64,000 nt of DNA, taken from NCBI GenBank assembly GCA_022787085.1, contig JALFVE010000047.1, positions 32,784-96,783 of the forward strand. The letters run 5' to 3'. Each line of letters opens with the position of its first letter. Positions within the stretch are counted from its first letter, which is position 1. The position numbers and the translations under genes were made by a program. Shown here piece after piece: positions 12,761 through 27,077 of the stretch. The notes beneath the pieces are model-generated. The model saw only the letters and a program-made list of their open reading frames with translations. It did not search any database and was not told the DNA's origin. The DNA is from Oscillospiraceae bacterium (lineage in GTDB: Bacteria; Bacillota; Clostridia; Oscillospirales; Ruminococcaceae).

Positions 12761-12924
12761 AAGATCACGTCCTTTGAAACAATTATACACTAATTTGCGG
12801 AAAAAAGCAACAAAATTCTGATATATAAATCAAAACTATGATATCTGAAACCGAAAAAACTATGTAAAATAAAAGCATAAAGCAACGGAACAGAAAACAT
12901 CAACAATAAAGGAGAGAAATGATT

Positions 12925-14346
12925 ATGAAAAATTCAAAGAAAGCAATGGCATTTCTGACCGCAGTAATATCTCTGGCAGGAGTAATGACAGCCTGCTCGG
13001 ACAGCAATGAGAGCGGGGCTTCAACACAGGAAAGCACCTCTGTAACCACCGAAACGACCCCCGCCAAGGAGCTTAACGAGGAGGACGCACAGATCGTAGG
13101 GGAGATCGACACAGGCGATTCCGAGAAGCTGGAAAACGGCACAGTAAAGTGGCTTTCCTTCTGGGATCTGAATCCTGCAAACGGCAAGCCCAAGTCGGTA
13201 GAGCTTGAGCTTTTTGAAACAAAATACGGCGGCAAGATCGAGTATGTCCCCACAACATATGAGACCCGTTACAGCGACCTTTCAACTCAGGTTCTGGGCG
13301 GCACATCACCCGACCTTTTCCCCGCAGCAGACCTGGACACCTTCCCGGGAAAGGCAGTAGCGGGAATGTTCGAGCCCTTTGACGATTACCTTGACTTTGA
13401 CAGCGACCTCTGGAGCACAGGTGCAAAGAAGCTTTCCGACGCACACACATTGGGCGGCAAGCATTATGTGGCAGTGGTATCCACAGACGCAGGCTGCGTG
13501 TGCATTTACAATAAGCGCACAATGGAGGAAAACGGCTTTACCGACCCCGCAGAGCTTCTTGAGGAGGGCAAATGGGACTGGAATGCCTTCAAGGATATGT
13601 GCATGGAATTTTCCGACAGGGAAAATAATAAATTCGGATTTGACGGCTGGTGGTTTGAGATAAATCTCCTTCTCACCACAGGAAAGCCTGTAGTAGGAAT
13701 GGAAAACGGAGTAATAACAAGCAATCTTCTCAGCCCCGAAATGGAGCGTGCGGAGAACTTCATGCTGGATATGAACAAGAACGACCTTCCTCTTCCCAAG
13801 GCAGAATTCAGCTGGGTAGAGCAGCCCCAGCGCATATCCGAGGGAACCACCCTGTTCTATCCCTGCGGAATCTGGGCGCTTTACGAGGCAGATCTTTCCA
13901 AATTCGGCAAGGAGGGCGAGATAATGTTCGTGCCCATGCCCAAGGATCCCGACGCAGATGAATATTACCTGCCCTCAGGCGTAGACGCATACGCCCTCTG
14001 CAAATCCGCACCCAATCCCGAGGGAGCAGCAGCATTTATGAAGTGCAAGCTTCTTGCAGTAGGCGATGAAAAGGCGCAGGCAATTGCAGAGAAGCAGTAT
14101 CGTGAGGATTACGGCTGGACAGACGAAATGATAGATATGTGGTACAAGACCAAGGAGCTTACAAACGAAAATCCCGTAGTAGATTTCTATGCAGGCGTGT
14201 CCTCGGACCTTTACGACCTTGTGCATAATCCCATCAAGGACGCTTCCTACAACGGCAAGGACTGGTCAACCACAAGAGATGAGATAAGTGCCCCCGCACA
14301 GAATCTTATCGACGAAATGAACAAGAAGATCGAAGAAAATTTCTGA
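12925..14346 (+). CDS. Carbohydrate ABC transporter solute-binding lipoprotein
   Basis: A 473-residue lipoprotein: signal peptide ending at a lipobox (GVMTAC), a Ser/Thr-rich linker, then a family 1 extracellular binding fold (VKWLSFWDLNPANG, and GGTSPDLFPAADLDTFPG near the domain start). The ATG at 12925 is 8 nt from the AAGGAGAG ribosome site and is preferred over the ATG at 12919. It probably captures beta-glucan oligosaccharides released by the neighbouring GH16. No permease genes are adjacent, so it must share a transporter encoded elsewhere or act as a sensor or capture protein. Confidence 0.88.
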   Translation: MKNSKKAMAFLTAVISLAGVMTACSDSNESGASTQESTSVTTETTPAKELNEEDAQIVGEIDTGDSEKLENGTVKWLSFWDLNPANGKPKSVELELFETKYGGKIEYVPTTYETRYSDLSTQVLGGTSPDLFPAADLDTFPGKAVAGMFEPFDDYLDFDSDLWSTGAKKLSDAHTLGGKHYVAVVSTDAGCVCIYNKRTMEENGFTDPAELLEEGKWDWNAFKDMCMEFSDRENNKFGFDGWWFEINLLLTTGKPVVGMENGVITSNLLSPEMERAENFMLDMNKNDLPLPKAEFSWVEQPQRISEGTTLFYPCGIWALYEADLSKFGKEGEIMFVPMPKDPDADEYYLPSGVDAYALCKSAPNPEGAAAFMKCKLLAVGDEKAQAIAEKQYREDYGWTDEMIDMWYKTKELTNENPVVDFYAGVSSDLYDLVHNPIKDASYNGKDWSTTRDEISAPAQNLIDEMNKKIEENF

Positions 14347-14368
14347 AAATAAATCGAGGTAATGGCAT

Positions 14369-15319
14369 ATGAAAAATCTTACAGGCTATAAAAAGGGAGT
14401 AAACCTTGGCGGCTGGCTCTCCCAGTGCTGCCACACCGCAGAGCATTATGATACATTCATAAGCGCAGAGGATATCGAAAAAATCGCATCATGGGGAGCA
14501 GACCATGTCCGCCTGCCCATAGACTATAACCTTGTGGAAAACGAGGACGGAAGCGAAAAGGAAAGCGGCTATGCATATATAGACAAGGCGGTAAAATGGT
14601 GCAGGCTATTCGGTCTTGATCTTATCCTCGACCTTCATAAGACCTCAGGCTTCTCCTTTGATAAGGGAGAGAATGAATCGGGATTTTTTGAGAGCGGGGA
14701 ATTGCAGGAAAGATTCATAAAACTCTGGGAACGTCTTGCAAAGCGCTATGCGGTAAATGACGGCAGCATTGCCTTTGAGCTTCTGAACGAGGTCACAGAG
14801 CAGAGCTATGCCGCAAAATGGAACAGCATAGTCCGCAGCTGTATCGAAAGGATACGAAATATTGCCCCCGAAACGATAATACTTGTGGGCGGCTATTGGC
14901 AGAACAGCCCCGACGCAGTGCCCGACCTTGAAGCTCCCTATGACGATAAGGTAGTCTATAATTTCCACTGCTATGACCCCATGGATTTCACCCATCAGGG
15001 CGCATACTGGGTGGAGGATATGGACCCTGCCTTCAGAAAGTCCTTTGACAGCGCAGAAATAACCCCCGAATTTTTCATGGGACGCTTTGAGCGTGCCGCA
15101 GAAGCCGCAAAGAAAAACGGAACAGTCCTCTACTGCGGAGAATACGGCGTGATCGACAATGCCACTCCCGAGGATACAGTAAAATGGTTCAAAGCCATAA
15201 ACGCAGCCTTTGAAAAAATGGGGATCTGCCGTGCCGCATGGAGCTATAAGCAAATGGATTTCGGACTGTCCGATGAAAGGATGTCAGGCGTGATCGACGA
15301 GCTGAAAAGCTATCTGTAA
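14369..15319 (+). CDS. Cytoplasmic GH5 family glycoside hydrolase
   Basis: A 316-residue family 5 glycosidase. The fold is recognisable from NLGGWLSQ near the N-terminus, HVRLPIDY, the acid/base motif ELLNEVTE (Glu about 140), YNFHCYDP and the nucleophile motif CGEYGVI (Glu about 258). There is no signal peptide, so it would act on oligosaccharides after import. It follows the solute-binding protein gene by 22 nt with an 'atcgaggtaa' ribosome site and is probably co-transcribed. The exact substrate (beta-1,3/1,4- or beta-1,4-glucan oligomers) cannot be told from the sequence. Confidence 0.9.
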   Translation: MKNLTGYKKGVNLGGWLSQCCHTAEHYDTFISAEDIEKIASWGADHVRLPIDYNLVENEDGSEKESGYAYIDKAVKWCRLFGLDLILDLHKTSGFSFDKGENESGFFESGELQERFIKLWERLAKRYAVNDGSIAFELLNEVTEQSYAAKWNSIVRSCIERIRNIAPETIILVGGYWQNSPDAVPDLEAPYDDKVVYNFHCYDPMDFTHQGAYWVEDMDPAFRKSFDSAEITPEFFMGRFERAAEAAKKNGTVLYCGEYGVIDNATPEDTVKWFKAINAAFEKMGICRAAWSYKQMDFGLSDERMSGVIDELKSYL

Positions 15320-15346
15320 AAATCATCTTCCTCTTTAAAAAATACA

Positions 15347-15387
15347 TATCCCGCAGATGTTTAAAACGCCTGCGGGATAATTTTTTT
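15347..15387. terminator. Bidirectional terminator between GH5 and DUF2828 genes
   Basis: A 10-bp stem (15347-15356 with 15370-15379) with a T-run on the plus side and an A/T-rich tail on the other; it separates convergent operons. Confidence 0.85.
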
Positions 15388-16861
15388 ATGAAGCAACAGC
15401 GCTGTATCTTTCCCGTCCGATTATCTCATCCATAACAGCCATGGGGGAGATATTGCCCGACTTCACCATGTCAAATATAGCAGGAGAGAAGCCCGAAACC
15501 AGAGCAGCGCCCGTCCGTGAAAGGGTAACGGGAATCGCCGAGCCTCTGCTGCAAAGATTCCAGAAAACAATTTCGGGAAGCTCGTAGCCATATAAGGCAT
15601 ATCTCTTCTTCATAATATTGAAGAGGGGCTGACTGTTTCCGCCCTCAACGCACATATCGAACTGCATATCCGAAAGGATGTACAGTCTTTTTGGCATATC
15701 GCTTTTGGGGACCTTGTTTGAAACGGCAGTTTTCAGAATAAGATGGAAAACCGCCTCAAGGTTGGTGTTTGCGCACTCATTGAAGGAAGCGCAGTACTGA
15801 GCCTTTTCGGAAATGTCACCGCCCTTGACTTCAACGAGGCGGGGCTTTTCGGAAAAGGTGATGAAATGACCGCTGAAAGCTCCCTTGTTATGCTCGGCAA
15901 AGTAAATGCCAAGGGAAAGCGCAGCGTCAATGGGACGGGGATTATTGCCCCATGTCATTGAGCCCGAGCCGTCAATTACCGCAATGGCATTTTCGGTGGA
16001 AGCGCCATGGTCGGGCAGACTGTTCCATGTAACGTCCAGAGCCTTTTTCTCCTCTGCCGAAAGCGTATCGGTAAGCACCCTGCGGATTATTTCATAGGGA
16101 TAAAGGGTGTCTGCATGAAGCACAGCCTTGCCCGAGCTTACATTTTGGAGATATTCGCTGTACCGCTCGCCGTCGTTTCGGATAAAAGCCTTTTTGTACT
16201 TGAACATAGCACCCGAGGGCTGCTTCTCGTAGTCAAAGGTGTAATCCATGACTCTGAGGCGGTTTTCGGTAATGTCGGTGTATTTTCTCAGAGCGGAAAG
16301 GGACTTGCGGTAATTCTTCTCGCTCATGCCCATATTATCGCAGAGTCTTTTTGCATTTCTGACAGTTTCCTCAGAGGAAGCGTTCACCGAGGGAAGCCAT
16401 TTGGCAAGGAGAGAAACGGGCTTGCCCTCCGCCATTCCCGCAATATCCTCATCGAGCTGAGCCTTGATGAGCTTAACGGCTTCATCCTCGCAGGGGGTGT
16501 CCAGAAGAGTGCAGAGATCGTCAAATCTGCCGTATTCCGCAAAAAGGGGAATGTTCCTGATAACGCTTTCGGGAGCGGAAAAAGCAAGGTGCTTTACCGC
16601 AATGCGGAAAAAGCGTCTTTCCCCCAGACCGCCTCTGACATCTCTTGCAAAGAAGATGATCTTCATGGTCTTTTCGGGATCTTCGGCATATGCCCTGAGA
16701 ACAGCCTTGCCGATCTCCTCCTCGGAGGAATTTCTCATAGCCCCCGCCTTGAAAAACAGGTCGAGGCAATCGGAATGGGTGGATATGTAAGCCCTTCCGC
16801 CGTTTTCGGTAAAGGTTTCGTTAGAAGTTTCCTTCATAGCATTTAAAAAATCAAACATCAT
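15386..16861 (-). CDS. DUF2828 (TROVE/Ro60-like repeats plus vWA) protein
   Basis: A 491-residue protein. The N-terminal 270 residues are helical repeats with family landmarks (FFARDVRGGLGERRFFR, PLFAEYGRFDDL, LLAKWLPSVNAS). From about residue 285 comes a von Willebrand A domain with an intact MIDAS (IDGSGSM, about 294-300). DUF2828 is related in architecture to Ro60/TROVE proteins, which bind Y RNAs and misfolded RNAs through a ring of helical repeats closed by a vWA domain. It starts with ATG after GGAG at 16871-16868. The gene lies downstream of rtcB on the same strand, separated only by the structured RNA array. I infer that it is the protein partner of those RNAs. Confidence 0.85.
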   Translation of the reverse strand: MMFDFLNAMKETSNETFTENGGRAYISTHSDCLDLFFKAGAMRNSSEEEIGKAVLRAYAEDPEKTMKIIFFARDVRGGLGERRFFRIAVKHLAFSAPESVIRNIPLFAEYGRFDDLCTLLDTPCEDEAVKLIKAQLDEDIAGMAEGKPVSLLAKWLPSVNASSEETVRNAKRLCDNMGMSEKNYRKSLSALRKYTDITENRLRVMDYTFDYEKQPSGAMFKYKKAFIRNDGERYSEYLQNVSSGKAVLHADTLYPYEIIRRVLTDTLSAEEKKALDVTWNSLPDHGASTENAIAVIDGSGSMTWGNNPRPIDAALSLGIYFAEHNKGAFSGHFITFSEKPRLVEVKGGDISEKAQYCASFNECANTNLEAVFHLILKTAVSNKVPKSDMPKRLYILSDMQFDMCVEGGNSQPLFNIMKKRYALYGYELPEIVFWNLCSRGSAIPVTLSRTGAALVSGFSPAIFDMVKSGNISPMAVMDEIIGRERYSAVAS

Positions 16862-16878
16862 AAAACACTCCTTTTCAC

Positions 16879-17070
16879 AAGACAGGATTTTATACTAAAC
16901 ACCTATTGAATTATGGGAATCTCTCGCCGCAAAATCCATATATGCAAGCTTTTGCGGCGATTTCTTCTCCATAATTCTAATGGTGTTTAGTATTACCGAT
17001 AAAATCGGGCAGGATTTGAACCTGCATTAACCAATTAAAAAATGCTGTGACTGTCTTAAAATTTTTGCTG
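16879..17070 (-). ncRNA. Array module 6: T-arm-containing Y-RNA-like module, split by a MITE
   Basis: Minus-strand module. A CAGCAA motif (17070-17065) is followed by a 7-bp helix AAGACAG (17057-17051) pairing with CTGTCTT (16885-16879), and a second, variant motif CACAGCATT (17049-17041). Inside are a perfect tRNA T-arm, GCAGG-UUCAAAU-CCUGC (17025-17009), and directly abutting it a capped acceptor-like hairpin CCGAU-UUU-AUCGG (17008-16996). The closing strand is separated from the rest by the 100-bp MITE at 16893-16992, inserted at a TA 3 nt beyond the acceptor hairpin. Without the MITE the helix closes across 12 nt. Whether the interrupted module still works is unknown. Confidence 0.65.
16893..16992. 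mobile_element. 100-bp IS630-type MITE (copy 1), inserted in array module 6
   Basis: It begins TACTAAACACC and ends GGTGTTTAGTA, with terminal similarity extending about 27 bp (GAATTATGG on both sides) and an inner palindrome (CGCCGCAAAA / TTTTGCGGCG). It is identical to 63639-63738 except at one base. Termini match the IS630 at 8232-9360 (TACTAAACACC), which could supply the transposase. Confidence 0.9.
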
Positions 17071-17072
17071 AC

Positions 17073-17143
17073 AAGGCTCATTTCCTCGCAGCGCCCGAAA
17101 TGAGCAGACTGCGTCCCATCGGAAAAATTGCTGATCGAGCCTT
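17073..17143 (-). ncRNA. Array module 5: CAGCAA stem-loop with alternative pairing
   Basis: The outer helix AAGGCTC (17143-17137) pairs with GAGCCTT (17079-17073), followed after 3 nt by CAGCAA (17133-17128). Inside, CGCAG (17113-17109) can pair with CTGCG (17091-17087). A competing 9-bp hairpin, GCTCATTTC (17105-17097) with GAAATGAGC (17084-17076), would open the outer helix, so the module could switch. No T-arm is present. Confidence 0.65.
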
Positions 17144-17159
17144 TAAAAGAGGGAATTAC

Positions 17160-17283
17160 ACGGCTCATAAATTATTTTTTGCTATTCCCCTTTGAAAGGG
17201 TCTGTGATTCGAACACAGTACAAGCGAAGAGCCTGTTATAGCAGCCATGAAAATAAGTTTCTTTGAATTGCTGTTTGAGCCGT
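17160..17283 (-). ncRNA. Array module 4: Y-RNA-like module with T-arm and arm-like hairpin
   Basis: The outer helix ACGGCTCA (17283-17276) pairs with TGAGCCGT (17167-17160); CAGCAA follows at 17273-17268. After an A/T-rich stretch, an inner helix GCUAU/AUAGC (17242-17238 with 17185-17181) encloses three hairpins in series: ACAGGC-loop-GCUUGU (17236-17220), a perfect tRNA T-arm CUGUG-UUCGAAU-CACAG (17218-17202) and a capped acceptor-like hairpin CCCUU-UCA-AAGGG (17200-17188). The first hairpin is in the position of a long variable arm, and there is no D-arm. No protein-coding frame covers it. Confidence 0.8.
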
Positions 17284-17306
17284 AAATTAAAGAAAAATAT
17301 TTAAAC

Positions 17307-17360
17307 AAGGCACTGTAATTTCACGTGGCAGGTGAATCAGAATTTTGCTGTATGTGCCTT
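17307..17360 (-). ncRNA. Array module 3: short CAGCAA stem-loop
   Basis: The outer helix AAGGCAC (17360-17354) pairs with GTGCCTT (17313-17307); CAGCAA is at 17350-17345. An inner hairpin TTCAC-loop-GTGAA caps the module. The outer helix differs from those of the neighbouring modules by paired changes. Confidence 0.7.
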
Positions 17361-17373
17361 TAAGAATTTTTTC

Positions 17374-17422
17374 AAGGCGCATAAATCTTTAAATAATCAA
17401 TAAAAATTGCTGTCTGCGCCTT
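17374..17422 (-). ncRNA. Array module 2: short CAGCAA stem-loop
   Basis: The outer helix AAGGCGCA (17422-17415) pairs perfectly with TGCGCCTT (17381-17374). CAGCAA is at 17412-17407, in the same position relative to the helix as in the other modules. The loop is A/T-rich with only a weak inner hairpin. Confidence 0.7.
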
Positions 17423-17436
17423 ATATTAAATTTTTC

Positions 17437-17543
17437 TCGGTGCATTTTGATGTTTTCTTGTTGCTCTGCCCACTGAGCTACGGGTCGCCCCGACAGGAAT
17501 CGAACCTGTGACACGCAAGGACAAGATTTGCTGTTAGCACCGC
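17437..17543 (-). ncRNA. Array module 1: circularly permuted tRNA mimic (bacterial Y-RNA-like)
   Basis: Minus strand, starting 7 nt after the rtcB stop codon. The outer helix CGGUGC (17542-17537) pairs with GCACCG (17443-17438), and CAGCAA follows at 17533-17528. An inner helix UCUUGU/ACAAGA (17526-17521 with 17461-17456) stands where the anticodon stem would be. Then, in order: T-arm ACAGG-UUCGAUU-CCUGU (17509-17493), acceptor stem CGGG capped by a GCGA tetraloop and closed by CCCG (17492-17481), the conserved UA of tRNA positions 8-9, a D-arm GCUC-AGUGGGCA-GAGC with its GG pair, and A26. This is a tRNA elbow opened at the anticodon and closed at the acceptor end. That topology is known for the tRNA-like domain of YrlA Y RNAs. 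Confidence 0.85.
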
Positions 17544-17550
17544 ATAAAAA

Positions 17551-18795
17551 TTAACCTTTAACTACCCCCACCGTAAACAGCTTTTTGACAGCTTCGGTAA
17601 GGTCACGCTGATTATCCATCACCGTGTCAATGTCCTTGTAAGCGAATCGGGATTCCTCCGCAACATCCGCCTTCTTGTTTTTGCCAAGAACAACATTGTT
17701 AGCCTTGAGGTCGTTAATAACCGTATCGACGGCGAATTTCTGCATAGCCGCAGTACGGGAATAAAGCCTGCCCGCCCCGTGGGAGGAGGACATAAAGCTG
17801 TCGGGATCGCCCTTTCCCCTGACAATGTAGCTGTAAGAGCCCATTGAACCCGGGATAATGCCCATCTCGCCCTCTCTTGCGCTTATGGCACCCTTTCGGT
17901 GAACGAAAACGTCCTTGCCGAAGTGATTTTCAAGAGCGGCGTAATTGTGATGGCAGTTGATCTCACCCGAGAAATGCGCCTCAAGCCCCGTGTATTTAAG
18001 CACATATTTAGAGAATATATCCCTGACCTTACTTAGCATTGCAGCACGGTTTTCGTAAGCGAAATCCATGGAGAGCCGCATCCAGTCAAGGTATCGCTTA
18101 CCCTCGGGGGAATCCGCAGGGAGAAAGGGGAGCCGCCATTCGGGGGGAACAGAACTGTGCCATTTCTCATTAAGCTTCGCCGCAATGCCGCCGAAATGCT
18201 CGCATACCCTGTATCCGAAATTTCTGCTGCCCGAGTGGAGCATGATGGTGCAAAGCCCCTTTTCGTCCTCCTGCAGCTCAATGAAATGGTTGCCGCCGCC
18301 CAGAGTACCCACCTGAAAATAGCCGTCCTCAATGTTATTTATAAGCTCGGGGTCGCTTTCATATTTTGAAAGCTCCTCCTTCGCCCTGTCAAGAACAGCC
18401 GAAGTCTGCGGCGTCTTGTAATGCGCAAAGTCCGTGGGAATGTTTCTGAGGATATCGCCGACGATCGCCTGCAAAAGAGTGCCGCTGCCCGTAACAGTCT
18501 CACGGAGCGCCGAAACGGGGATATCCGTCTGGAGAAAAGCCATTCCGCAGCCGATGTCCACACCCACCGCATTGGGAATAACAGCGCCGTCGCAGGCAAT
18601 CACCCCGCCTATGGGCATCCCCTTTCCTGTGTGAGTGTCGGGCATAAGTGCCGCCCATTTATATGTAAAGGGAAGCTGAGCGATGTGCTCTGCCTGCTCA
18701 AGGCAGCTTTCCTCGATAGTGCCCTTCTGTGCCCATATCTTGATGGGGAATCTGCCGTTAACATTATGTACGAACAATCTGCTCAGTCCTTTCAT
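17551..18795 (-). CDS. rtcB: RtcB RNA ligase
   Basis: RtcB joins 2',3'-cyclic-phosphate (3'-phosphate) RNA ends to 5'-OH ends using GTP and Mn, in tRNA repair and splicing. The protein shows the family's metal and guanylate sites: MPDTHTGKGMPIGGV, GVDIGCGMAF (metal Cys), GGGNHFIEL, LHSGSRNFG, INCHHNYA, and SSHGAGR with the histidine that becomes guanylylated. Length is normal. An upstream in-frame TTG at 18825 would add ten residues, but a TATAAT lies across it, so I prefer the ATG at 18795. The leader would then be only about 11 nt with no clear ribosome site. It heads an apparent operon with the CAGCAA RNA array and DUF2828, and is divergent from two WYL genes. Confidence 0.95.
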   Translation of the reverse strand: MKGLSRLFVHNVNGRFPIKIWAQKGTIEESCLEQAEHIAQLPFTYKWAALMPDTHTGKGMPIGGVIACDGAVIPNAVGVDIGCGMAFLQTDIPVSALRETVTGSGTLLQAIVGDILRNIPTDFAHYKTPQTSAVLDRAKEELSKYESDPELINNIEDGYFQVGTLGGGNHFIELQEDEKGLCTIMLHSGSRNFGYRVCEHFGGIAAKLNEKWHSSVPPEWRLPFLPADSPEGKRYLDWMRLSMDFAYENRAAMLSKVRDIFSKYVLKYTGLEAHFSGEINCHHNYAALENHFGKDVFVHRKGAISAREGEMGIIPGSMGSYSYIVRGKGDPDSFMSSSHGAGRLYSRTAAMQKFAVDTVINDLKANNVVLGKNKKADVAEESRFAYKDIDTVMDNQRDLTEAVKKLFTVGVVKG

Positions 18796-18813
18796 GTCGC
18801 TTTCGATGTTTCC

Positions 18814-18842
18814 ATTATAAACCAAAAAAACTCATTCGTCAT
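18814..18842 (-). promoter_or_regulatory. Promoter of the rtcB-array-DUF2828 operon
   Basis: On the minus strand ATGACG (18842-18837), 17-nt spacer, TATAAT (18819-18814). The -10 overlaps the upstream TTG of the rtcB frame, which argues for the ATG start at 18795. Confidence 0.6.
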
Positions 18843-18873
18843 TTAAAAAAGTCTGCGAACACTCTGATGCGTA

Positions 18874-18902
18874 TTGATTTGATTTTCAAAATGTGATATT
18901 AT
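18874..18902 (+). promoter_or_regulatory. Promoter of the WYL gene pair
   Basis: TTGATT at 18874-18879, 17-nt spacer, TATTAT at 18897-18902, about 40 bp ahead of the WYL gene start. It lies back to back with the rtcB promoter, so one regulator could control both. Confidence 0.6.
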
Positions 18903-18943
18903 GGAAATACAATAAAATAATTTATAAGAACGAAGGTGAGAAC

Positions 18944-20182
18944 ATGAGCGGTTTTTCTGAGCTTATCAAAAATTTCGACAAAACGAGAGATTATATCAGA
19001 GACTTTTTTATATACGGCTTCAAGGTGCGAAACGAGTTTACGGGCAAAAGCAGCCGCACCTATGATGATGAAAAAAGGAGAGCGGAAAGCTGGCTTGGGG
19101 ATATATTCAGATATGACAATACCCGACGGGGGAAGCAGGTGTCCATCACCGTAGACAGCGGGCATATAGCCGAAAATCCGCTTTACAGCGCCTATTATTC
19201 AAAAAGCTTCACCGACAATGATATAAAGCTTCATTTCATGCTCATGGATATCCTTGACGGCAGAAGCCTTAACGTACATGAGATAACCGAAGCCCTGAAC
19301 AGCGCATATGAGCAGCTTTTTGACGAGCAGACCGTCAGAAACAAGCTCAAGGAATATGTGACCGAAGGGATATTCATATGCGAAAAAAAGGGACGAGCGG
19401 ATATATTCACCCTTTCCGCCGATACCGCCGAAAGCTTTTTCACAGAGTATGAGGGGCTTGAGGACGCCGTAAAATTCTTTTCCGAATCCCCCGAGTTTGG
19501 CGTGGTGGGCAACAGCATTTTGAGGACCGCAGGGATAAAAAACGATATTTTTCTGAATAAGCATAATTATATCGTCCATACCCTTGAGGACACCATTCTG
19601 CTTGACCTGCTTAAAATAATGGAGGAAAAGCGCCTTGCCGCAATAACCAATTTCGGCAGAGGAGGAAAAGCCTCGGAGAATGAGGGCGTGCCGCTGAAAA
19701 TATTCTCATCGTCCCAAACGGGACGGCGGTATGCGGTCATGTATCTTCCCAAATATAAGCGCTATAATTCCTTCAGGCTCGACTACATAAAAAACGTAAC
19801 CCCTCTTGGAATATGCGGAGAATATGATGACTATGCCGAAAAGCTCAGCCGCTGCGAGGAAAAATGCTTCGGCGTGTCCTTCGGGGAGAGAAGCGGCGAG
19901 GGAGCGGGAGGGATATTCCGCATGGTGCTGAGCATAAATGAGGAAAGCGAGGGCTTTGTCCTTGACAGACTCAGCAGGGAAAAGCGCTGCGGAAATATCC
20001 GCAGGATAGACGAAAATCTGTTTGAATATACCGCCGAGGTCTTTGACGTAAATGAAATGATGTCGTGGGTCAAGACCTTTATCGGCAGGATAGTGTCCGC
20101 CGAAAGCACCAATAAGCAGGTAACGGATAAGCTGTATCGGGATATAGCCCGTATGAAGCGTATCTACCGCAGAAAGGAGTAA
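18944..20182 (+). CDS. WYL-domain protein with winged helix (first of pair)
   Basis: A 412-residue protein starting at an ATG preceded by GAAGGTGAG; the longer frame from 18893 lacks a ribosome site. Residues about 95-160 look like a winged helix (LNVHEITEALNSAYEQLFDEQTVRNKL in two turns). A WYL-type domain follows around residues 230-290, with the conserved arginine-containing segments SSQTGRRYAVMYLPKYKRYNSF and LDYIKNVTPLG. WYL proteins are transcription regulators believed to sense nucleic-acid ligands, and they recur beside RNA- and DNA-damage systems. Placement opposite rtcB suggests it senses damaged RNA and controls the repair operon (inference). Confidence 0.8.
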   Translation: MSGFSELIKNFDKTRDYIRDFFIYGFKVRNEFTGKSSRTYDDEKRRAESWLGDIFRYDNTRRGKQVSITVDSGHIAENPLYSAYYSKSFTDNDIKLHFMLMDILDGRSLNVHEITEALNSAYEQLFDEQTVRNKLKEYVTEGIFICEKKGRADIFTLSADTAESFFTEYEGLEDAVKFFSESPEFGVVGNSILRTAGIKNDIFLNKHNYIVHTLEDTILLDLLKIMEEKRLAAITNFGRGGKASENEGVPLKIFSSSQTGRRYAVMYLPKYKRYNSFRLDYIKNVTPLGICGEYDDYAEKLSRCEEKCFGVSFGERSGEGAGGIFRMVLSINEESEGFVLDRLSREKRCGNIRRIDENLFEYTAEVFDVNEMMSWVKTFIGRIVSAESTNKQVTDKLYRDIARMKRIYRRKE

Positions 20183-20188
20183 TAAGGC

Positions 20189-21205
20189 ATGAAGCTTTTT
20201 TCAGAAATATACGGAGCCTATTTCCGCTGTACGGAAGCAATACTGTCCGAGGGGAAGCTTAGCGAAAAAAGGCTTCGGGAGATAGTAAGCGAAAAAGCGT
20301 TCAGGGATTCGCAGCTGTTCATCCCCGAAAAGCTCATACCCGATAAAAGCGGAAATTCCCCATGGGGACTTCTGAAGCGGGATGAAAAGGGCAGGCTCTG
20401 CTCCGTCCTTGAACAGTCTCCTCCGAGGATAATCACAGCTCTGCAAAAAAGCCGTATCAAAGCCATGCTGTCCGACCCGAGGATAAGGCTGTTTCTTTCC
20501 GATGAGGATATATCCGCCCTGTCCGAACGCCTAAAAGACGTGAAGCCCCTGTATAATCGGGAATATTTCCGTGAATTTGACCGCTTCACCGACGGAGATG
20601 ATTATGAAGACCCCCATTACAGAGAGGTGTTCGGCATAATATTAAAAGCAGTGCGTGAGCGGGAGATTTTGACCATAGAGCTTGTTTCCCGCCGGGGAAT
20701 ACGAATGACCAAAAATGTTCTTCCCGTAAAAATCGAATATTCACGGAAGAACGATAAATTCCGTGTCTACTGCATAACCGCCCCGCAAAAGGAGGAATAT
20801 CTTTTCAATATTTGCAGGATAGAAAGAGCGATGCCCACAGGAAAGCATGAAAGCTTTGCCCCCGATATGGAGGAATTTTTCAGCAGGAGGCGGTGTGAAA
20901 AGCCCGTAACAGTGGAAGTAAGCAGCGAGCGGAATGCAGTGGAGCGGTTCATGATGGAGTTTGCAGCCTATGAAAAGCGAAGCGAGCTTGATCTTGAAAC
21001 GGGGAAATGCCATGCCTCGATATACTATGACAAGCAGGACGAAACGGAGCTTCTCATCATGCTTCTGGGCTTCGGACCCGTGCTGAAAATAACAGGGCCC
21101 GAGGAATTTCTTGAAAAGGCAAGGGAGCGGGTGGAAAGGCAGTATGAGCTGTTTTATCCGAAGGGAGAAGATATTGCGGCAGAGGGAGAGCAGGCGACGG
21201 TATAA
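20189..21205 (+). CDS. WYL-domain protein (second of pair)
   Basis: A 338-residue protein, 6 nt after the first WYL gene and sharing its AAAGGAG ribosome site region. The N-terminal 130 residues are helical and not clearly recognised. A WYL domain follows at about 150-215 (LTIELVSRRGIRMTKNVLPV, KFRVYCITAPQKEEYLFN) and then a C-terminal extension typical of the family (ERNAVERFMMEFAAYEKRSEL). Paired WYL regulators of this kind act as hetero-oligomers in systems such as PafBC. The strict pairing opposite rtcB suggests joint regulation of RNA repair (inference). Confidence 0.8.
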   Translation: MKLFSEIYGAYFRCTEAILSEGKLSEKRLREIVSEKAFRDSQLFIPEKLIPDKSGNSPWGLLKRDEKGRLCSVLEQSPPRIITALQKSRIKAMLSDPRIRLFLSDEDISALSERLKDVKPLYNREYFREFDRFTDGDDYEDPHYREVFGIILKAVREREILTIELVSRRGIRMTKNVLPVKIEYSRKNDKFRVYCITAPQKEEYLFNICRIERAMPTGKHESFAPDMEEFFSRRRCEKPVTVEVSSERNAVERFMMEFAAYEKRSELDLETGKCHASIYYDKQDETELLIMLLGFGPVLKITGPEEFLEKARERVERQYELFYPKGEDIAAEGEQATV

Positions 21206-21263
21206 ATATTATAGTACATCTGTTCGGAACTTGTCAAGATAAATCAGAAAGAGTGTTTCGCAA

Positions 21264-21304
21264 AAATTCAGAGCGCTGATTAATAAGATCGGCGCTCTGA
21301 ATTT
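21264..21304 (+). terminator. Probable terminator of the WYL operon
   Basis: A 13-bp perfect inverted repeat (21264-21276 with 21292-21304). The T-run after it is short. The rest of 21206-21467 is A/T-rich, with a weak promoter (TATAAT at 21416-21421) before the Nudix gene. Confidence 0.6.
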
Positions 21305-21467
21305 CTATATGTGAATCTCTATAAAATCAGCAAATAATTTTTGTGCAAATATTACTTATAAACAAATTTTTTGTGTTTTTTTATAAAAACAGGAGACAAA
21401 ACCATTTTTTTATGTTATAATTATACTAATTCCAATTACTATATCCGAAAGGGAGTGTGCAGAATAT

Positions 21468-21875
21468 ATGACCTTTGAAAAATCCTGCGGTGCGATCGTT
21501 TACCGCAAGCATCACGGGAATACGGAGATATTGCTCATAAAGCATATCAACAGCGGGCACTGGTCCTTTCCCAAGGGGCACATGGAGCAGGGGGAAAGCG
21601 AGACGGAGACCGCCCTTCGTGAGATAAAGGAGGAAACGGGGCTTGACGTTCTTCTCGATCCCACATTCAGGGAAAGCGTGACCTACTTTCCACGGAAGGA
21701 CACCCAGAAGGTGGTGGTCTATTTCATCGCCAAGGCAAAGACCTATGACTATACCCCGCAGGAGGACGAGATCGCAGAGATACGCTGGGTGGATATCGGT
21801 CATGCCGTAACCATGCTCACCTATGAAAACGATAAGACCATTGTGAACAAAGCAAGGTCGGCAATTTGTCTGTAA
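21468..21875 (+). CDS. Nudix hydrolase (Ap4A hydrolase-like)
   Basis: A 135-residue protein with an intact Nudix box, from GHMEQGESETETALREIKEE through TGL (about residues 37-59), preceded by HWSFPKG as in bacterial and eukaryotic diadenosine tetraphosphate hydrolases. Such enzymes hydrolyse nucleoside diphosphate-linked compounds, for example Ap4A or alarmones, in the cytosol with Mg or Mn. It is a single gene with its own terminator. The exact substrate cannot be assigned by eye. Confidence 0.92.
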   Translation: MTFEKSCGAIVYRKHHGNTEILLIKHINSGHWSFPKGHMEQGESETETALREIKEETGLDVLLDPTFRESVTYFPRKDTQKVVVYFIAKAKTYDYTPQEDEIAEIRWVDIGHAVTMLTYENDKTIVNKARSAICL

Positions 21876-21877
21876 TG

Positions 21878-21912
21878 AAAAAACGTCGGAAAGCTCTCCG
21901 ACGTTTTTTAAA
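21878..21912 (+). terminator. Terminator after the Nudix gene
   Basis: A 13-bp stem (21878-21890 with 21897-21909) rich in A on one side and T on the other, directly after the stop codon. Confidence 0.9.
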
Positions 21913-21971
21913 TCAATATGTTTCCGATATGTTATGATATTCTGCAAATAAAATTAACAAGGGGGCAGGGA

Positions 21972-22091
21972 ATGAAATCAAAAAAGAAGCTGAGCGGGAC
22001 AAAGATCGCTCAGATAGTCTGTCCGGCGTTATCGGCGGTATTATGGGGATACCGGATAATTGACCGCATTATTGATAAGTGCGGGCGGTAA
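21972..22091 (+). CDS. Small 39-residue hydrophobic protein (putative)
   Basis: A short frame beginning at ATG after a GGGGGCAGGGA ribosome-like site. It encodes a basic N-terminus (MKSKKKLSGTK) followed by a hydrophobic segment (IAQIVCPALSAVLWGYRII) that could span the membrane. The stop codon lies inside the following terminator hairpin. I recognise no family. The good ribosome site and terminator favour a real small gene, but no promoter is obvious. Confidence 0.4.
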   Translation: MKSKKKLSGTKIAQIVCPALSAVLWGYRIIDRIIDKCGR

Positions 22092-22116
22092 TAAAATCGC
22101 CCGCACATTTATTTTT
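22079..22116. terminator. Bidirectional terminator
   Basis: A 9-bp stem GTGCGGGCG/CGCCCGCAC (22079-22087 with 22098-22106) with a T-rich tail, between the small plus-strand frame and the end of the dikinase-like gene. Confidence 0.8.
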
Positions 22117-24418
22117 CCACCCGAACAACTCCTCTCGCCCCGTCCACCGTAACCATATCACCCGTTTTAAGAACCGTGGTGGCATTCCCGCAGCCAACCA
22201 CCGCAGGAATACCGAATTCCCTTGCCACAATAGCCGCATGGGAAAGGGGAGCGCCGATATCGGTAATAATCGCCGCAGCTCTTGGGAATACCACCGTCCA
22301 GCCGATGTTCGTAGCGGGAGCCACAAGAATTTCGCCCTCCCGAAGCTCTTCTGCACGGTCTGCGGTGAAGATGACCCTCACCCGTCCCGTAACCGTGCCC
22401 GCCGCACCGGGAAAGCCCTTTATATCTGCGGAAACAGGACATTCAAAATCCTCCTCCGAGTAAAAATCATGTCGGGGAGAGTCCTCCGAGAGCCATTTAT
22501 CGGGGTCGAACCTGCCGTAAATAAGATTCGGGAACGGGGGATAGGAAAGATATTTTTCATAGCTTACCCGCCTTTTGGGAATATTCTCCAAAGCGCTTTT
22601 GTCCCCGTTCAGAAGCCCCATGGCTTCGGAGAAATACAAAAGGAAAATATCATCTCCAATGCTGTTCAGCTCACCTGCCCGCAGAAGAAATTCCCTCATC
22701 ATGCAGAAAAGCTTAACGCCCTTGCTTCTGACCTCTTCACGTCCTCTGTTTGCCTCCTTGAAGCTGTGCAGAGTCCTGTCGAGCCATTTTGCTTTGCGGG
22801 GATACAGCTCCTTGAAACGCTTTACAGATCCATTGAAACGGCTTTCCTGTTCCTCTCTCATCCTGTGGATATTTGCTCCCGACTTTCTGTGTTCCTCAAT
22901 TAAATTATCGGGGAAATCGGGACTTTCATAGGGATAGGGAGCGGAAAGCTCCATCTCGTTCACGCTTCTGTGACCGCAGAGCTTTATGTATTCCTCCTTT
23001 GAAAGACTGCCGTTTATAACGTCCTCAAGCAGAAGCAGCGGCTTCATGCTGTCAAGAACGCCCGCACCGCCCGAGCAAAGCTCATTGGCAAGCTCCTCGC
23101 CGCAGATGTCTGAGAGCTTCTTTTTGGTGCCGAAAAGGGGAAAGATATTGACCCCTCGGATTATTGTTCCAAGGGACGAGGACATAAATCCCATGCCCTT
23201 TGTTACCCAGAAATCATAAAGGGAGCGGTTGTCGGGGAGCTGCCTTATTTCGCTGATAAGCCCGTCGGCAATATCACCCATATTCTCGGAAAATTCCTTC
23301 TTTTCCCTTCGGCTCATTTTATTTTTGCTGCCCGAGAAGAAAAGCTTTCTCATTCTCCGTTTGAAATTTTTAATATCAAATGGAAACATGGGAACTTGAA
23401 CTCCCTGAGGAAGCTCGCCCGCAATATCCTTTATCTTTCCGAAAACTGTCTTTTCCGAAGCGCCCATCGCCACCATCAAAGAGCATATCACGCTGAGATT
23501 TGCATAGGGCTGACCGCACACATTGTCGATAAAGCAGGGCATACCCATGGCTTCGCAGATTATTTCCAGAACGCTGTAGGTCATGGGGGAAACGGGGCGC
23601 ATGAATATCTCGCCCACATTGGTTTTGGACAGCAGATATTTACCCGCAAGACTGCCGTTAACAGTGAAGCTGTCCCTGTCAATGCGCTTTAGTGAGGTAA
23701 TGGGACGAGCCTGTAAAATATAGACCTTGCCGTCCGATACCGCCCATTCGATATCCATGGGGCGTCCGTATTCGTTTCTTATCTGAGAGCAGTATTTATA
23801 AAGCCTTTTGGCGTATTTCTCAAATTCCCCGCTGCCCGAATATGCGTACTTCATGGCATTAAAGGAAAATTCCTCGGCGTTTTTCTCCCCCGAAACAAGC
23901 GCCTCGCCCTCGCCTCTAACATAGTTTCCCGTCATAACCCCCGAGCTGCCGCTAATGGGGTCGGCGGTGAATACAACACCCGCAAACTGAGGTTTGACAA
24001 ACCGCTGAATAACTGCTCCGATGCCGCTGTTATCGGCACCCGAGCTTTCCGCATATCGCTTTACCCGAATACTGTCCGCAGACATGGCGACCTTGTTTGC
24101 CGCAGAAATGATATCCTCTCTTTTAACGTCCGTCATAGTTTCATACGCCCCCGCAAAGGAAGCGTTCTCTCCGTCCTCGGAAAGTGCGGAGGAGCGAACC
24201 GCATAGGTGTGCTTCGGAGACAGCCCCGATATCAGCTCCTCAAGCTCCCTTTCAGCCGATTTCTTTAATCCGCCATTTTCAAAGGCAGCTGCATCAATAG
24301 CATATCCCTCGGGAACGGGCAGCCCCATTTCGGTAAGCCTTGCAAGGGAAGCGCCCTTCCCGCCGAAGCGTGCGGGATCGTCTCCCGAAATTTCCTTAAA
24401 TGAATAAATGTATCTCAT
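22109..24418 (-). CDS. Rifampicin-phosphotransferase-like PEP-synthase-family dikinase
   Basis: A 769-residue protein. Residues 1-250 form the ATP-grasp PEP/pyruvate-binding domain (FGGKGASLARLTEMGLPVPEGY, AVRSSALSEDGENASFAGAYET, VVFTADPISG, DIEWA). A 400-residue middle domain is poorly conserved. The swivelling phosphohistidine domain is at the very C-terminus (SHAAIVAREFGIPAVVG, catalytic His). PEP synthase and pyruvate phosphate dikinase have a TIM-barrel PEP domain after the His domain; this one does not. The order ATP-grasp, substrate domain, His domain is that of rifampicin phosphotransferase. The substrate could be a rifamycin or another small molecule. It overlaps the TetR gene by 4 bp, so a ligand-induced two-gene operon is likely. 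Confidence 0.8.
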   Translation of the reverse strand: MRYIYSFKEISGDDPARFGGKGASLARLTEMGLPVPEGYAIDAAAFENGGLKKSAERELEELISGLSPKHTYAVRSSALSEDGENASFAGAYETMTDVKREDIISAANKVAMSADSIRVKRYAESSGADNSGIGAVIQRFVKPQFAGVVFTADPISGSSGVMTGNYVRGEGEALVSGEKNAEEFSFNAMKYAYSGSGEFEKYAKRLYKYCSQIRNEYGRPMDIEWAVSDGKVYILQARPITSLKRIDRDSFTVNGSLAGKYLLSKTNVGEIFMRPVSPMTYSVLEIICEAMGMPCFIDNVCGQPYANLSVICSLMVAMGASEKTVFGKIKDIAGELPQGVQVPMFPFDIKNFKRRMRKLFFSGSKNKMSRREKKEFSENMGDIADGLISEIRQLPDNRSLYDFWVTKGMGFMSSSLGTIIRGVNIFPLFGTKKKLSDICGEELANELCSGGAGVLDSMKPLLLLEDVINGSLSKEEYIKLCGHRSVNEMELSAPYPYESPDFPDNLIEEHRKSGANIHRMREEQESRFNGSVKRFKELYPRKAKWLDRTLHSFKEANRGREEVRSKGVKLFCMMREFLLRAGELNSIGDDIFLLYFSEAMGLLNGDKSALENIPKRRVSYEKYLSYPPFPNLIYGRFDPDKWLSEDSPRHDFYSEEDFECPVSADIKGFPGAAGTVTGRVRVIFTADRAEELREGEILVAPATNIGWTVVFPRAAAIITDIGAPLSHAAIVAREFGIPAVVGCGNATTVLKTGDMVTVDGARGVVRVEK

Positions 24419-25211: not shown

Positions 25212-25907
25212 ATGAAACTGAAAAAGCGTTATATCGTAGCCTGCGTGCTGCTTTGTATAGCTGCGCTGGCATTATGCGTAGGAGTATTCAACATTGAAAT
25301 GGGTCTTGCAAGGTATGCAAAGCTCAATAAGGTAACGAGCCAGACGTGGAAGGCGACCTCCGCCAGCGAGGTGGGAAACCGGGTTAATTCAGATCTGCTT
25401 ATCACCAATGTTATAAAGAAGGGCGATGAGAGTTTTCCGGATGATGAGTTTCCTTATATCGGCGAGCAGTGCTATGTAAAGGGAAAGTATGTCGCATACG
25501 GTCAGGACGCATGGGGCGGCGGTGTTCTTCTTAACGGCAAGAATCCCGATACAGGCGAATCCTACAAGCTGGGCGATAAGGTATCCATTTACTATAAGCC
25601 CGATAATCCGAAGCTTACATATGCCACAACCAATTATACAATATATATTATCCTTCTTGTGGCACTGTTTGTTGCTGCAATTGCGCTGATAATTGTCTGC
25701 CGTATCGTAAACAAGAGCATGAAGGACAATACCTTCAGCGATGCAGCCGTAACTATCATGGATATCCCCATGGCAGTAATCGTAGCAGGCTTTATCCTCA
25801 CCTTCTTTGCAGGAATGCTCATGGGCAATATCCAGGTAGATTCCACCTACACCGCTATCAACGATGCCGTAGCAGCAGGAATTGAAGCAGGCGAGATCGC
25901 ATTCTGA
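25212..25907 (+). CDS. DUF3592-like membrane protein
   Basis: A 231-residue protein with three hydrophobic segments: an N-terminal anchor (about 7-28) and two near the C-terminus (about 148-170 and 190-215). Between them lies an extracytoplasmic region ending in VSIYYKPDNPKLTYATTN, which resembles the 'V.V.Y.P.NP' end of DUF3592 domains. The start at 25212 follows GGAGG with an 8-9 nt spacer and is preferred over 25176. Function unknown. It has its own promoter and a strong terminator. Confidence 0.6.
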   Translation: MKLKKRYIVACVLLCIAALALCVGVFNIEMGLARYAKLNKVTSQTWKATSASEVGNRVNSDLLITNVIKKGDESFPDDEFPYIGEQCYVKGKYVAYGQDAWGGGVLLNGKNPDTGESYKLGDKVSIYYKPDNPKLTYATTNYTIYIILLVALFVAAIALIIVCRIVNKSMKDNTFSDAAVTIMDIPMAVIVAGFILTFFAGMLMGNIQVDSTYTAINDAVAAGIEAGEIAF

Positions 25908-25974: not shown

Positions 25975-26388
25975 ATGGTCAGAGAAATATTAATGGGCGA
26001 GGAGCTGTTTTCCGAAAAGGCTGAGGAGGCAAAAAGAGGAGATCTGAAAACCGCAAAGGATCTTCTGGATACCCTCAAAGCAAATTCCGACCGCTGCGTG
26101 GGCATGGCGGCAAATATGATAGGCGTAAACAAAAGAATAGCGGCAATATCCGCAGGGAAAAGCTTTCTTGTGCTGATAAATCCCGTAATTACCGCACATT
26201 CGGCGGGATGCTATACCGCAGAGGAGGGCTGCCTCTCCCTTTCGGGAAAGCGGAAAACCGAGAGATATGAATGGATAACAGTTCGGTATCATGATGTGAA
26301 TTTCAGAAGCAGGGAGCAGCGGTTTACGGGCTTTACGGCTCAGATAATCCAGCATGAGATGGACCATTTCGATGGGAAAATTATCTGA
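25975..26388 (+). CDS. Peptide deformylase-like protein
   Basis: A 137-residue protein with the three deformylase motifs: GMAANMIG (motif I), EEGCLSLSG (motif II, metal Cys) and QHEMDHFDG (motif III, HExxH). Peptide deformylase removes the formyl group from nascent proteins. Motif I differs from the canonical GLAAPQIG: the catalytic Gln is Met here and Pro is Asn. This short Firmicutes form may be a secondary deformylase or act on other substrates. The ATG at 25975, 5 nt after GGGAGG, is chosen over the upstream TTG at 25963. It is followed by trmO after 14 nt. Confidence 0.85.
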   Translation: MVREILMGEELFSEKAEEAKRGDLKTAKDLLDTLKANSDRCVGMAANMIGVNKRIAAISAGKSFLVLINPVITAHSAGCYTAEEGCLSLSGKRKTERYEWITVRYHDVNFRSREQRFTGFTAQIIQHEMDHFDGKII

Positions 26389-26402
26389 CAGGCGGTGGGG
26401 AT

Positions 26403-27077
26403 ATGGAGCTTAAAACAATTGCATGGATAGAAAATGACTTTACCGAAAAATTCGGCGTTCCGAGACAAAGCGGACTGACGGAAATGACCTCAAAAATAGT
26501 CTTTGCCCCCGAATACCGTGTCCCCGAGGCAATAAGAGGGCTTGAGGGCTTTACGCATATATGGCTTTTGTGGCAGTTTTCCGAGGCAGTGAGGGAAAAA
26601 TGGTCGCCCACCGTCCGTCCCCCAAGGCTGGGCGGGAATACCAGAATGGGAGTATTTGCAACCCGTTCGCCGTTCAGACCCAATTCCATCGGGCTGTCCT
26701 CCGTCAGACTTCAAAGGATAGAGCCTGACAGCCCCGAAGGGCCGGTGCTTTATGTTTCGGGGGCAGATCTTATGAACAAAACTCCCATAATTGATATAAA
26801 GCCCTATCTTGCCTATACCGATTCCCATCCCGAGGCGTCGGGAGGCTTTGCCCTTACCGAAAGGGAGGGGCGGCTCAGGGTGGATATTGCTCCCGGGCTG
26901 GCAGAAAGGCTACCCGAAGAAAAGCTGCCGTCCCTTATTGAAATACTTTCGCAGGACCCCCGCCCCCAGTATCAGTCAGACCCCGAAAGGATATATACCA
27001 TGAGCTTCGGCGGCTTTGAGATATCCTTTACCGTGAGTGAAAATGACCTCACCGTAACGGATATCCGCAAAAGCTGA
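26403..27077 (+). CDS. trmO: tRNA (N6-threonylcarbamoyladenosine(37)-N6)-methyltransferase TrmO
   Basis: A 224-residue protein of the TrmO/TsaA/UPF0066 family, recognisable from GLEGFTHIWLLWQF, RPPRLGGNTRMGVFATRSP and RPNSIGLSSVRL, which line the SAM site of its beta-barrel. It methylates t6A37 in some tRNAs to m6t6A. The C-terminal segment (IYTMSFGGFEISF) is typical of the longer bacterial form. It is probably co-transcribed with the deformylase gene 14 nt upstream, linking tRNA modification and protein maturation. The t6A genes tsaB and tsaE are also in the window. Confidence 0.93.
   Translation: MELKTIAWIENDFTEKFGVPRQSGLTEMTSKIVFAPEYRVPEAIRGLEGFTHIWLLWQFSEAVREKWSPTVRPPRLGGNTRMGVFATRSPFRPNSIGLSSVRLQRIEPDSPEGPVLYVSGADLMNKTPIIDIKPYLAYTDSHPEASGGFALTEREGRLRVDIAPGLAERLPEEKLPSLIEILSQDPRPQYQSDPERIYTMSFGGFEISFTVSENDLTVTDIRKS

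Follow-up and report, generated by a model that had tools for sequence, protein, structure and literature searches.

What fills the 689 nucleotides (nt) between an rtcB gene and the gene for a DUF2828 protein, and how does it relate to the Y RNAs that accompany Ro60? The question is raised by a 64,000-nt stretch of contig JALFVE010000047.1 from an Oscillospiraceae bacterium (assembly GCA_022787085.1; hereafter the window), in which the minus strand reads rtcB (18825–17551), the gap (17550–16862) and the DUF2828 gene (16861–15386). An earlier note on this DNA had placed the three in that order on one strand, which the coordinates bear out. We find that the gap is a tandem of six modules, each consisting of a closing stem, the motif CAGCA(A) just inside its 5′ arm and a variable insert, and that this stem and motif, here called the handle, are nearly restricted to DUF2828 loci of bacteria and phages, where some inserts match pieces of tRNA. 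On balance we lean towards a reading in which the array is transcribed as Y-RNA-like RNAs that are held by the DUF2828 protein via the handle, and whose inserts, as mimics, engage tRNA-cleaving or tRNA-repairing enzymes.

The six modules of the gap

Folding the gap with one extra base gives −203.9 kcal/mol (z −7.4, with 0 of 20 shuffles equal), in agreement with the earlier description of about 690 bp of structured non-coding DNA. The view of these 690 nt as a single folded RNA was set aside when the module boundaries became clear. The phrase "multi-module RNA" used in the earlier note thus stands as regards a tandem of Y-RNA-like modules, which is kept in dozens of loci, but the modules are separately clamped units with exchangeable inserts. 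The stem consensus is AAGGYRC/GYRCCTTG. Read by eye, a module has a stem of 6–9 base pairs, 2–3 bases, CAGCAA (mostly ACAGCAA), the insert, the 3′ arm and usually a G. The module scanner required CAGCAA; five window modules pass it, and the sixth, with CAGCAT, was read by eye.

All six modules lie on the minus strand. Module 1 (17438–17542; stem CGGTGC/GCACCG, TAACAGCAA) carries a T-arm followed by a D-arm, i.e., a permuted, YrlA-like tRNA, and its insert scores 31.7 bits against tRNA. The Rfam model of YrlA (RF02553) matches 17517–17458 within this module at 38.4 bits (E 1.3e-5; gathering score 69), spanning model positions 23–86, which form the tRNA-like T-arm/D-arm domain; the earlier term "Y-RNA-like" is borne out by this match, though it falls below the Rfam gathering score. 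Module 2 (17373–17423; stem TAAGGCGCA/TGCGCCTTG, GACAGCAA; fold z −3.9) has an A+T-rich insert without a recognisable tRNA piece. Module 3 (17307–17360; stem AAGGCAC/GTGCCTT, ATACAGCAA; fold z −1.9) has an insert of anticodon-arm geometry, with a 5-bp stem and the 7-nt loop CUGCCAC, the counterpart of which at a related locus (L043) is CUGUCAC, as in tRNA-Asp. Module 4 (17159–17284; stem TACGGCTCA/TGAGCCGTG, AACAGCAA) contains the T-arm CTGTGTTCGAATCACAG and further hairpins, and its fold (z −3.9) was equalled by 0 of 200 shuffles. Module 5 (17073–17143; stem AAGGCTCG/TGAGCCTT, ATCAGCAA; fold z −1.9) holds a G+C-rich hairpin in which no tRNA piece was recognised.

Module 6 (16879–17057; arms AAGACAG/CTGTCTT, TCACAGCAT with the variant motif CAGCAT) contains the T-arm-like hairpin GCAGGTTCAAATCCTGC and was identified by comparison with uninterrupted counterparts in L038, L041 and L043; the variant motif is also present in L044. 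The window copy encloses an inverted-repeat element of about 100 bp (16892–16993; ends ATACTAAACACC and GGTGTTTAGTAT), which has 10 further genome copies at 98–100% identity and is missing from module 6 of three relatives. The gap DNA had no match among plasmid records. As a separate observation, the module at about −340 from DUF2828 in L041 and L043 shows short internal repeats around AGCTTTCAGCTTACC; since these repeats are not found in its window counterpart, module 4, module inserts appear to change by small duplications.

Conservation and specificity of the handle

DUF2828 genes were collected in overlapping sets from 14 of 61 relatives, 37 of 396 family genomes and 21 of 391 class genomes (17 of these 21 over the Pfam cut-off). 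The closest two named relatives are Oscillospiraceae metagenome assemblies. Two duplicates (L003 and L004, of L038 and L041) were dropped, and L089 (27% identity, no module) is part of the 60-locus count and is excluded from the 59-locus and neighbour counts. Within 900 nt upstream of DUF2828 at 60 loci, 143 of 168 CAGCAA sites are clamped by a stem, versus 31 of 262 elsewhere on the same strand and 17 of 227 on the opposite strand, and 48 of the 60 loci have at least one clamped copy in this span; some of the 31 clamped copies elsewhere belong to arrays farther upstream, e.g., in L053 and L077.

The span was then widened to run from −1500 to 900 nt past the DUF2828 gene, and four permuted hexamers served as controls. 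Clamped CAGCAA sites amounted to 150/207 near, 24/221 far and 17/224 on the opposite strand in 59 bacterial loci, to 140/302, 32/277 and 20/223 in IMG/VR viral contigs, and to 31/39, 5/16 and 2/30 in named phages. Near the DUF2828 genes, the permuted hexamers were clamped in 5/25, 3/21, 3/20 and 4/52 cases (bacteria), 2/34, 2/46, 5/55 and 3/53 cases (IMG/VR), and 0/3, 1/6, 0/8 and 0/11 cases (named phages). At least one clamped CAGCAA is found in 50 of 59 bacterial loci, in 57 of 80 IMG/VR contigs and, with one doubtful case, in 12 of 15 named phages. The earlier note had named homologous loci without conserved structure as a refutation, and this check comes out in its favour. Allowing CAGCAG and CAGCAT raises the bacterial count to 54 of 59, with a higher far background of 85/798. 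Loci having any clamped CAGCAA module have one to seven. The earlier note had also pointed to rtcB-DUF2828 neighbours in other Ruminococcaceae; the class of loci that carry the array is much wider than these and includes phages of many hosts.

Aligned in a single register, 253 modules show Watson-Crick pairs in 90–100% of cases at every one of the seven stem positions, and all four Watson-Crick types occur at each; in 229 of the 253, the last of the seven pairs is followed by a G. Because the modules were selected for pairing, these percentages are not independent evidence for the stem; such evidence comes from the diversity of pair types and from the controls. At 33 of the 50 bacterial loci with modules, 3 to 45 nt separate the end of the last module from the DUF2828 start. 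The arrays of L053 and L077 lie 1.4–1.8 kb upstream of DUF2828, in L077 before rtcB.

The handle pattern AAGRYRCNNACAGCAA occurs 24 times in the 61 relatives, versus 2 times for its reversed form. All 11 occurrences at DUF2828 loci are clamped modules, versus 1 of 13 in other places, and this lone clamped copy sits in frame within an open reading frame (ORF) of 257 amino acids. Around seven TROVE-type Ro60 loci of the phylum (in two of them the open frame is short, at 124 and 132 amino acids), 4 of 68 CAGCAA sites over both strands are clamped, which equals background, and none is in the handle register; one of the four, in L266, has an AGGTAC-type arm outside that register. Based on the distribution of AAGRYRCNNACAGCAA and this background rate, the handle accompanies DUF2828 and not Ro60 generally, as far as seven TROVE loci tell.

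tRNA pieces in the inserts

The inserts are 15 to 159 nt long. A set of 30 distinct tRNA sequences from this genome (aragorn, run on 30 loci) served as the reference; 25 of 155 bacterial inserts score at least 24 bits against it, whereas five shuffled sets gave 1, 0, 0, 0 and 0 such matches and the reversed and reverse-complemented inserts gave 0. The pieces comprise T-arms, permuted T- plus D-arms, anticodon arms and tRNA bodies without the acceptor stem. Inserts of L054 and L032 share 23 and 21 identical bases with the anticodon-arm region of tRNA-Phe, and that of L052 is a tRNA body lacking the acceptor stem; in an Rfam scan of nine loci, L052 and L055 exceed the gathering threshold of the tRNA model. 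On the stretches scanned with Rfam, no family except YrlA and tRNA matched a module.

For a count of hairpins, similar inserts were counted once, giving 209 non-redundant inserts. With T-loops set aside, these contain 67 perfect hairpins with a 5-bp stem and a 7-nt loop, 38 of which have U33 and a purine at 37, versus 1.3 in shuffles and 1/89 in the reversed control. T-loops number 22, versus 0.08 in shuffles and 0 in the reverse-complement control. Since the anticodon-arm pattern is almost symmetric, the reverse-complement control does not discriminate for it, and the pattern alone does not prove the strand; the T-loops and handles do. The triplets at the anticodon position are GTC, TTT, TGA and TGG (four times each), GTT (three times), six others twice and seven once.

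Among 147 class genomes, 45 have sub-threshold YrlA matches and 0 have one over the cut-off. We gave these matches no weight: of ten inspected by eye (L226–L236), most are adjacent tRNA genes that the model took for a single YrlA, and L226 and perhaps L227 are the only ones that seem genuine. That pairs of neighbouring tRNA genes can mimic YrlA in Rfam is a caution for YrlA annotation in its own right.

A predicted Ro60-like protein fold

Ro60 grips Y RNA by a helix. The product of the DUF2828 gene (15386–16861, minus strand) matches PF11443 (DUF2828; E 1.8e-36) and PF25043 (DUF7788; E 2.7e-47), and its predicted fold, in which a helical-repeat domain precedes a vWA domain, matches that of Ro60 along about 400 residues. 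The sequence D297-G-S-G-S301, of the MIDAS type DxSxS, which we take to play the role of the MIDAS motif, is invariant across 38 sequences (38 of 120 homologues among the matches listed, out of 7935 found). At E 0.001, no TROVE domain (PF05731) was found in the protein, where PF25043 and PF11443 are the only matches, nor was a TROVE match found in its own genome; a search of the sequence against solved structures gave no match at E up to 1. The proposal that DUF2828 substitutes for Ro60 is supported at the level of predicted fold, and going by this model, DUF2828 proteins are likely a second family of the Ro-like kind, served by an RNA handle of their own.

Arrays in phages

DUF2828 relatives occur in 681 of 50,697 phage records (tblastn), all below 60% identity, and many of the listed mycobacteriophage records name the relative "Ro-like RNA binding protein". 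Modules were sought in 80 of 156 IMG/VR contigs, near-duplicates included, and in fifteen named phages. Three modules precede the DUF2828 gene in Listeria phages cka11 and P100plus, and three follow it in LeBron, MsGreen and S-CoN_Ph9. Four modules follow the gene in the E. coli phage momo, where they lie by a tRNA cluster, and in Klebsiella phage KP13-26, where one has a lower score of 16. Bacillus phage BcoS-136 has six, most of them among tRNA genes, Bacillus phage PJN02 has three, EFDG1 two and Fnu1 one, and the gut contig MT837221 has CAGCAG variants of the motif. The hosts of the phages with an array belong to Proteobacteria, Firmicutes, Actinobacteria and Fusobacteria. Sub-threshold YrlA matches are also seen at modules of LeBron and KP13-26, and P100plus carries, 1.3 kb downstream, an RNA ligase annotated as RNA-2′,3′-PO4:RNA-5′-OH (RtcB type).

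PMC12282133 reports three apparently non-coding regions with very high read numbers that share the strand of CKA15_055 and lie less than 2 kb upstream of it, and suggests that they are Y RNAs; purified particles of the phage are reported to contain the CKA15_055 protein (20 peptides). CKA15_055 (L256) is the DUF2828 gene of OR088597, where three modules lie at 25,553–25,289 behind a promoter-like site at 25,603. The presence of the DUF2828 protein in particles would allow delivery at infection. In P100plus, a ROOL match (Rfam; 1971–2522 of L242; 86 bits, E 4e-16, gathering score 99.1) adjoins tRNA genes; by position, its place corresponds to about 26,195–26,746 of OR088597, which fits the highly transcribed CKA15 region at 26,236–26,727, the sole region given with coordinates, and without the name ROOL, in the accessible parts of PMC12282133. 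The CKA15 array may be one of the other two transcribed peaks.

RtcB, WYL-type genes and locus layout

RtcB of the window (17551–18825, minus strand) belongs to the RNA 3′-phosphate/2′,3′-cyclic-phosphate ligase family and matches PF01139 in full length (profile positions 1–426 of 426, E 7.2e-110). Two plus-strand genes, WYL-type regulator 1 (18893–20182) and WYL-type regulator 2 (20189–21205), follow on the other side; they had been described as divergent, and both do diverge from rtcB, but not from one another. The two genes have zero Pfam matches at E 0.001, and their WYL identity rests on homologues: PF13280 is found in 10 of 20 relatives of regulator 1, some of which were chosen for carrying PF13280, and database names such as "WYL domain-containing protein" occur among them, while 3 of 6 relatives of regulator 2 match PF25583, a WCX-type C-terminus. 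When the WYL profile was run against PDB sequences, methyltransferases came up at E 0.02 and were judged chance.

Neighbours were counted in 44 of the 59 bacterial loci, 15 being left out for short flanks. RtcB stands within 4 kb in 28 and a WYL gene within 6 kb in 36; both WYL genes are present in 29, RtcB together with WYL in 26, and neither in 6. Each WYL-type gene adjoins the array locus in most cases, and in L084 and L087 a WYL gene adjoins DUF2828 itself. At many other loci RtcB belongs to a divergent subgroup, at 25–30% to that of the window, seven tested members of which match PF01139. RtcB is thus frequent, yet not the core of the system.

Neither RtcR, the activator with a CARF domain, nor RtcA was found by Pfam among eight neighbouring ORFs (12919–24418), two of which match nothing. 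That the WYL-type genes replace RtcR, as the earlier note supposed, fits their adjacency, and the back-to-back promoters it placed at the divergent genes are plausible: promoter-like sites are slightly above chance (8 vs. 4.7 ± 2.3). Terminator-like sites are no commoner than chance (3 found vs. 4.7 expected), and the sole minus-strand site is a hairpin that resembles a T-arm (17025–17009). Farther along, at 21978–22118 on the plus strand, a weak L20_leader-like match (Rfam, E 0.58) is probably an ordinary terminator hairpin.

Proposed mechanism and its alternatives

In the reading that we favour, the modules would be transcribed and released separately in this bacterium, the shared stem and CAGCA motif would dock as a handle on the Ro60-like DUF2828 protein, and the insert would be a cargo that displays a mimic of a tRNA arm. 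Enzymes that cleave or repair tRNA may be engaged by such mimics, either instead of real tRNAs or alongside them, and the mimics would act as decoys or as adaptors for the repair or decay of damaged tRNA; RtcB could repair the cut tRNAs or cut decoys, and the WYL pair could control the locus on a ligand such as damaged RNA. The several cargos per locus, especially the anticodon arms, together with RtcB and the tRNA clusters, point to traffic around cut tRNAs. Hughes et al. suggest that the tRNA-like domain of YrlA may competitively inhibit an anticodon nuclease, an idea that the array would extend to many tRNAs.

A more specific version of this proposal, which we put forward tentatively and with less than even expectation, is that the arrays are renewable decoy libraries, in which a Ro60-like ring would hold handle RNAs, each displaying part of a different tRNA, be it the anticodon arm, the T-arm or the body. 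Nucleases directed at tRNA (toxins, host anti-phage defence or rival phages) would strike the mimic or be held by it, RtcB would mend the cut mimics, bacteria and phages, in an arms race over tRNA, would exchange and retune modules, and the DUF2828 protein of some phages may be brought in with the virion.

Several observations weigh against the reading we favour. For the bacterial array, no transcript, processing or binding data were found. The majority of inserts, e.g., those of modules 2 and 5, have no recognised tRNA part, and the fold of module 1 is no better than shuffles (z −1.0). The anticodon-arm pattern recurs in 45 of 89 cases in the reverse-complement control, and not all anticodon-like triplets need be true copies, because TTA would read a stop. 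The DUF2828 model has a mean pLDDT of 79, with Foldseek TM-scores to Ro60 of 0.40 to 0.58. RtcB is absent from 16 of 44 bacterial loci, and a relative of the window's RtcB was found in 1 of 80 viral contigs, a search in which divergent RtcB could be missed. In the searched span, 23 of the 80 viral contigs have no CAGCAA module, no module was found in phages phiAS5 and Munch, and that of Vibrio phage K567 is doubtful because it overlaps the DUF2828 gene. In Salmonella, the part of PMC7790460 available reports no YrlA fragments when anticodon nuclease acted, so that a model in which the mimic is a cleaved bait is, on our analysis, not supported there.

The alternatives differ in how they treat the cargo and the position of the modules. 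The modules could be gate or scaffold RNAs of the Ro60 type, whose handle binds DUF2828 and whose cargo recruits PNPase or tRNA-modifying or tRNA-processing enzymes, a reading that we consider rather unlikely but keep ahead of those below; the corollary that the particle is an RNA-decay or quality-control machine and not a decoy is given the same low credence. The likeness of module 1 to YrlA speaks for it, as does the role that PMC7790460 reports for Rsr and its Y RNA together with PNPase in Deinococcus, but it leaves unexplained the several cargos per locus, the anticodon arms of many tRNA species and the occurrence in phages beside tRNA clusters. The nearness of the last module to the DUF2828 start in those 33 of 50 bacterial loci would suit a cis-acting leader that controls DUF2828 (and rtcB), for instance by sensing tRNA or by DUF2828 feedback. 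Such a leader is improbable, given that the modules lie 3′ of the gene in five named phages, that in one phage they are scattered among tRNA genes as far as 2 kb away, and that the arrays of L053 and L077 stand far upstream.

tRNA-derived sequence and stems are also typical of decayed tRNA genes, recombination sites and mobile repeats, and a repeat element did enter module 6. That the modules are of this kind, with no RNA role, is nevertheless very improbable, as the same motif, spacing and stem adjoin DUF2828 in bacteria and in phages of four host phyla, and the module motif hardly occurs elsewhere in the 61 genomes.

Should the handle-and-mimic reading hold, a domain whose function is unknown would join a "structured gap" in one testable particle, in a system that spans Oscillospiraceae-type bacteria and phages of E. 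coli, Bacillus, Mycobacterium, Listeria, Enterococcus, Staphylococcus and Klebsiella. The handle is a sequence rule by which to find such RNAs, and it offers a reason why a Ro-like gene lies beside tRNA clusters in several phages. Because different modules show different tRNA parts, the tRNA likeness of bacterial Y RNAs becomes directly testable.

Comparison with known systems

A literature search that lacked key papers on bacterial Y RNAs returned, by title or abstract, no description of DUF2828 with RNA arrays, nor of a DUF2828-specific handle, tandem arrays of tRNA parts, a WYL-linked form or the unity of phage and bacterial arrays. For the occurrence of Y RNAs in mycobacteriophages, PMC12282133 refers to Chen 2014. 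The "Ro-like RNA binding proteins" of LeBron and MsGreen are of the same family as the window protein (38.8% and 37.1% identity) and adjoin the same RNA modules, but the modules lie 3′ of the gene, and no RtcB or WYL gene is annotated within 2.5 kb on each side. The candidate Y RNAs of Listeria phage CKA15 are likewise abundant non-coding RNAs just upstream of a DUF2828 gene; neither handle nor tRNA pieces are described in the available parts of that source, and the region that can be placed fits ROOL.

The rsr-yrlBA-rtcBA operon of Salmonella, as far as the available text of PMC7790460 describes it, similarly brings together RtcB, a Ro60-like protein and tRNA-like RNAs with a divergent control gene. 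The window differs in having WYL-type genes where RtcR stands, DUF2828 instead of Rsr, and no RtcA among the eight neighbouring ORFs scanned. The same text describes Y RNA tethering Rsr to PNPase in Deinococcus, and a tRNA-like domain in YrlA.

With Ro60/Rsr and YrlA, the window shares a Ro60-like predicted fold with a vWA MIDAS-type motif in DUF2828, RNA modules that adjoin the protein gene (if DUF2828 counts as a Ro60 homologue by predicted fold), and, in one module, a tRNA-like domain of T-arm plus D-arm, the score of which is below the family threshold of YrlA. In contrast, DUF2828 lacks TROVE similarity, its CAGCA handle was not found at the seven TROVE loci, and each of its loci that has any clamped CAGCAA module has one to seven, among which tRNA pieces of different kinds occur. 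Particles of Ro and Y RNA, Y RNAs that mimic tRNA, a link to RtcB and phage-encoded Ro-like proteins are all known already; within such Ro/Y-RNA systems, the DUF2828 arrays are likely a new form.

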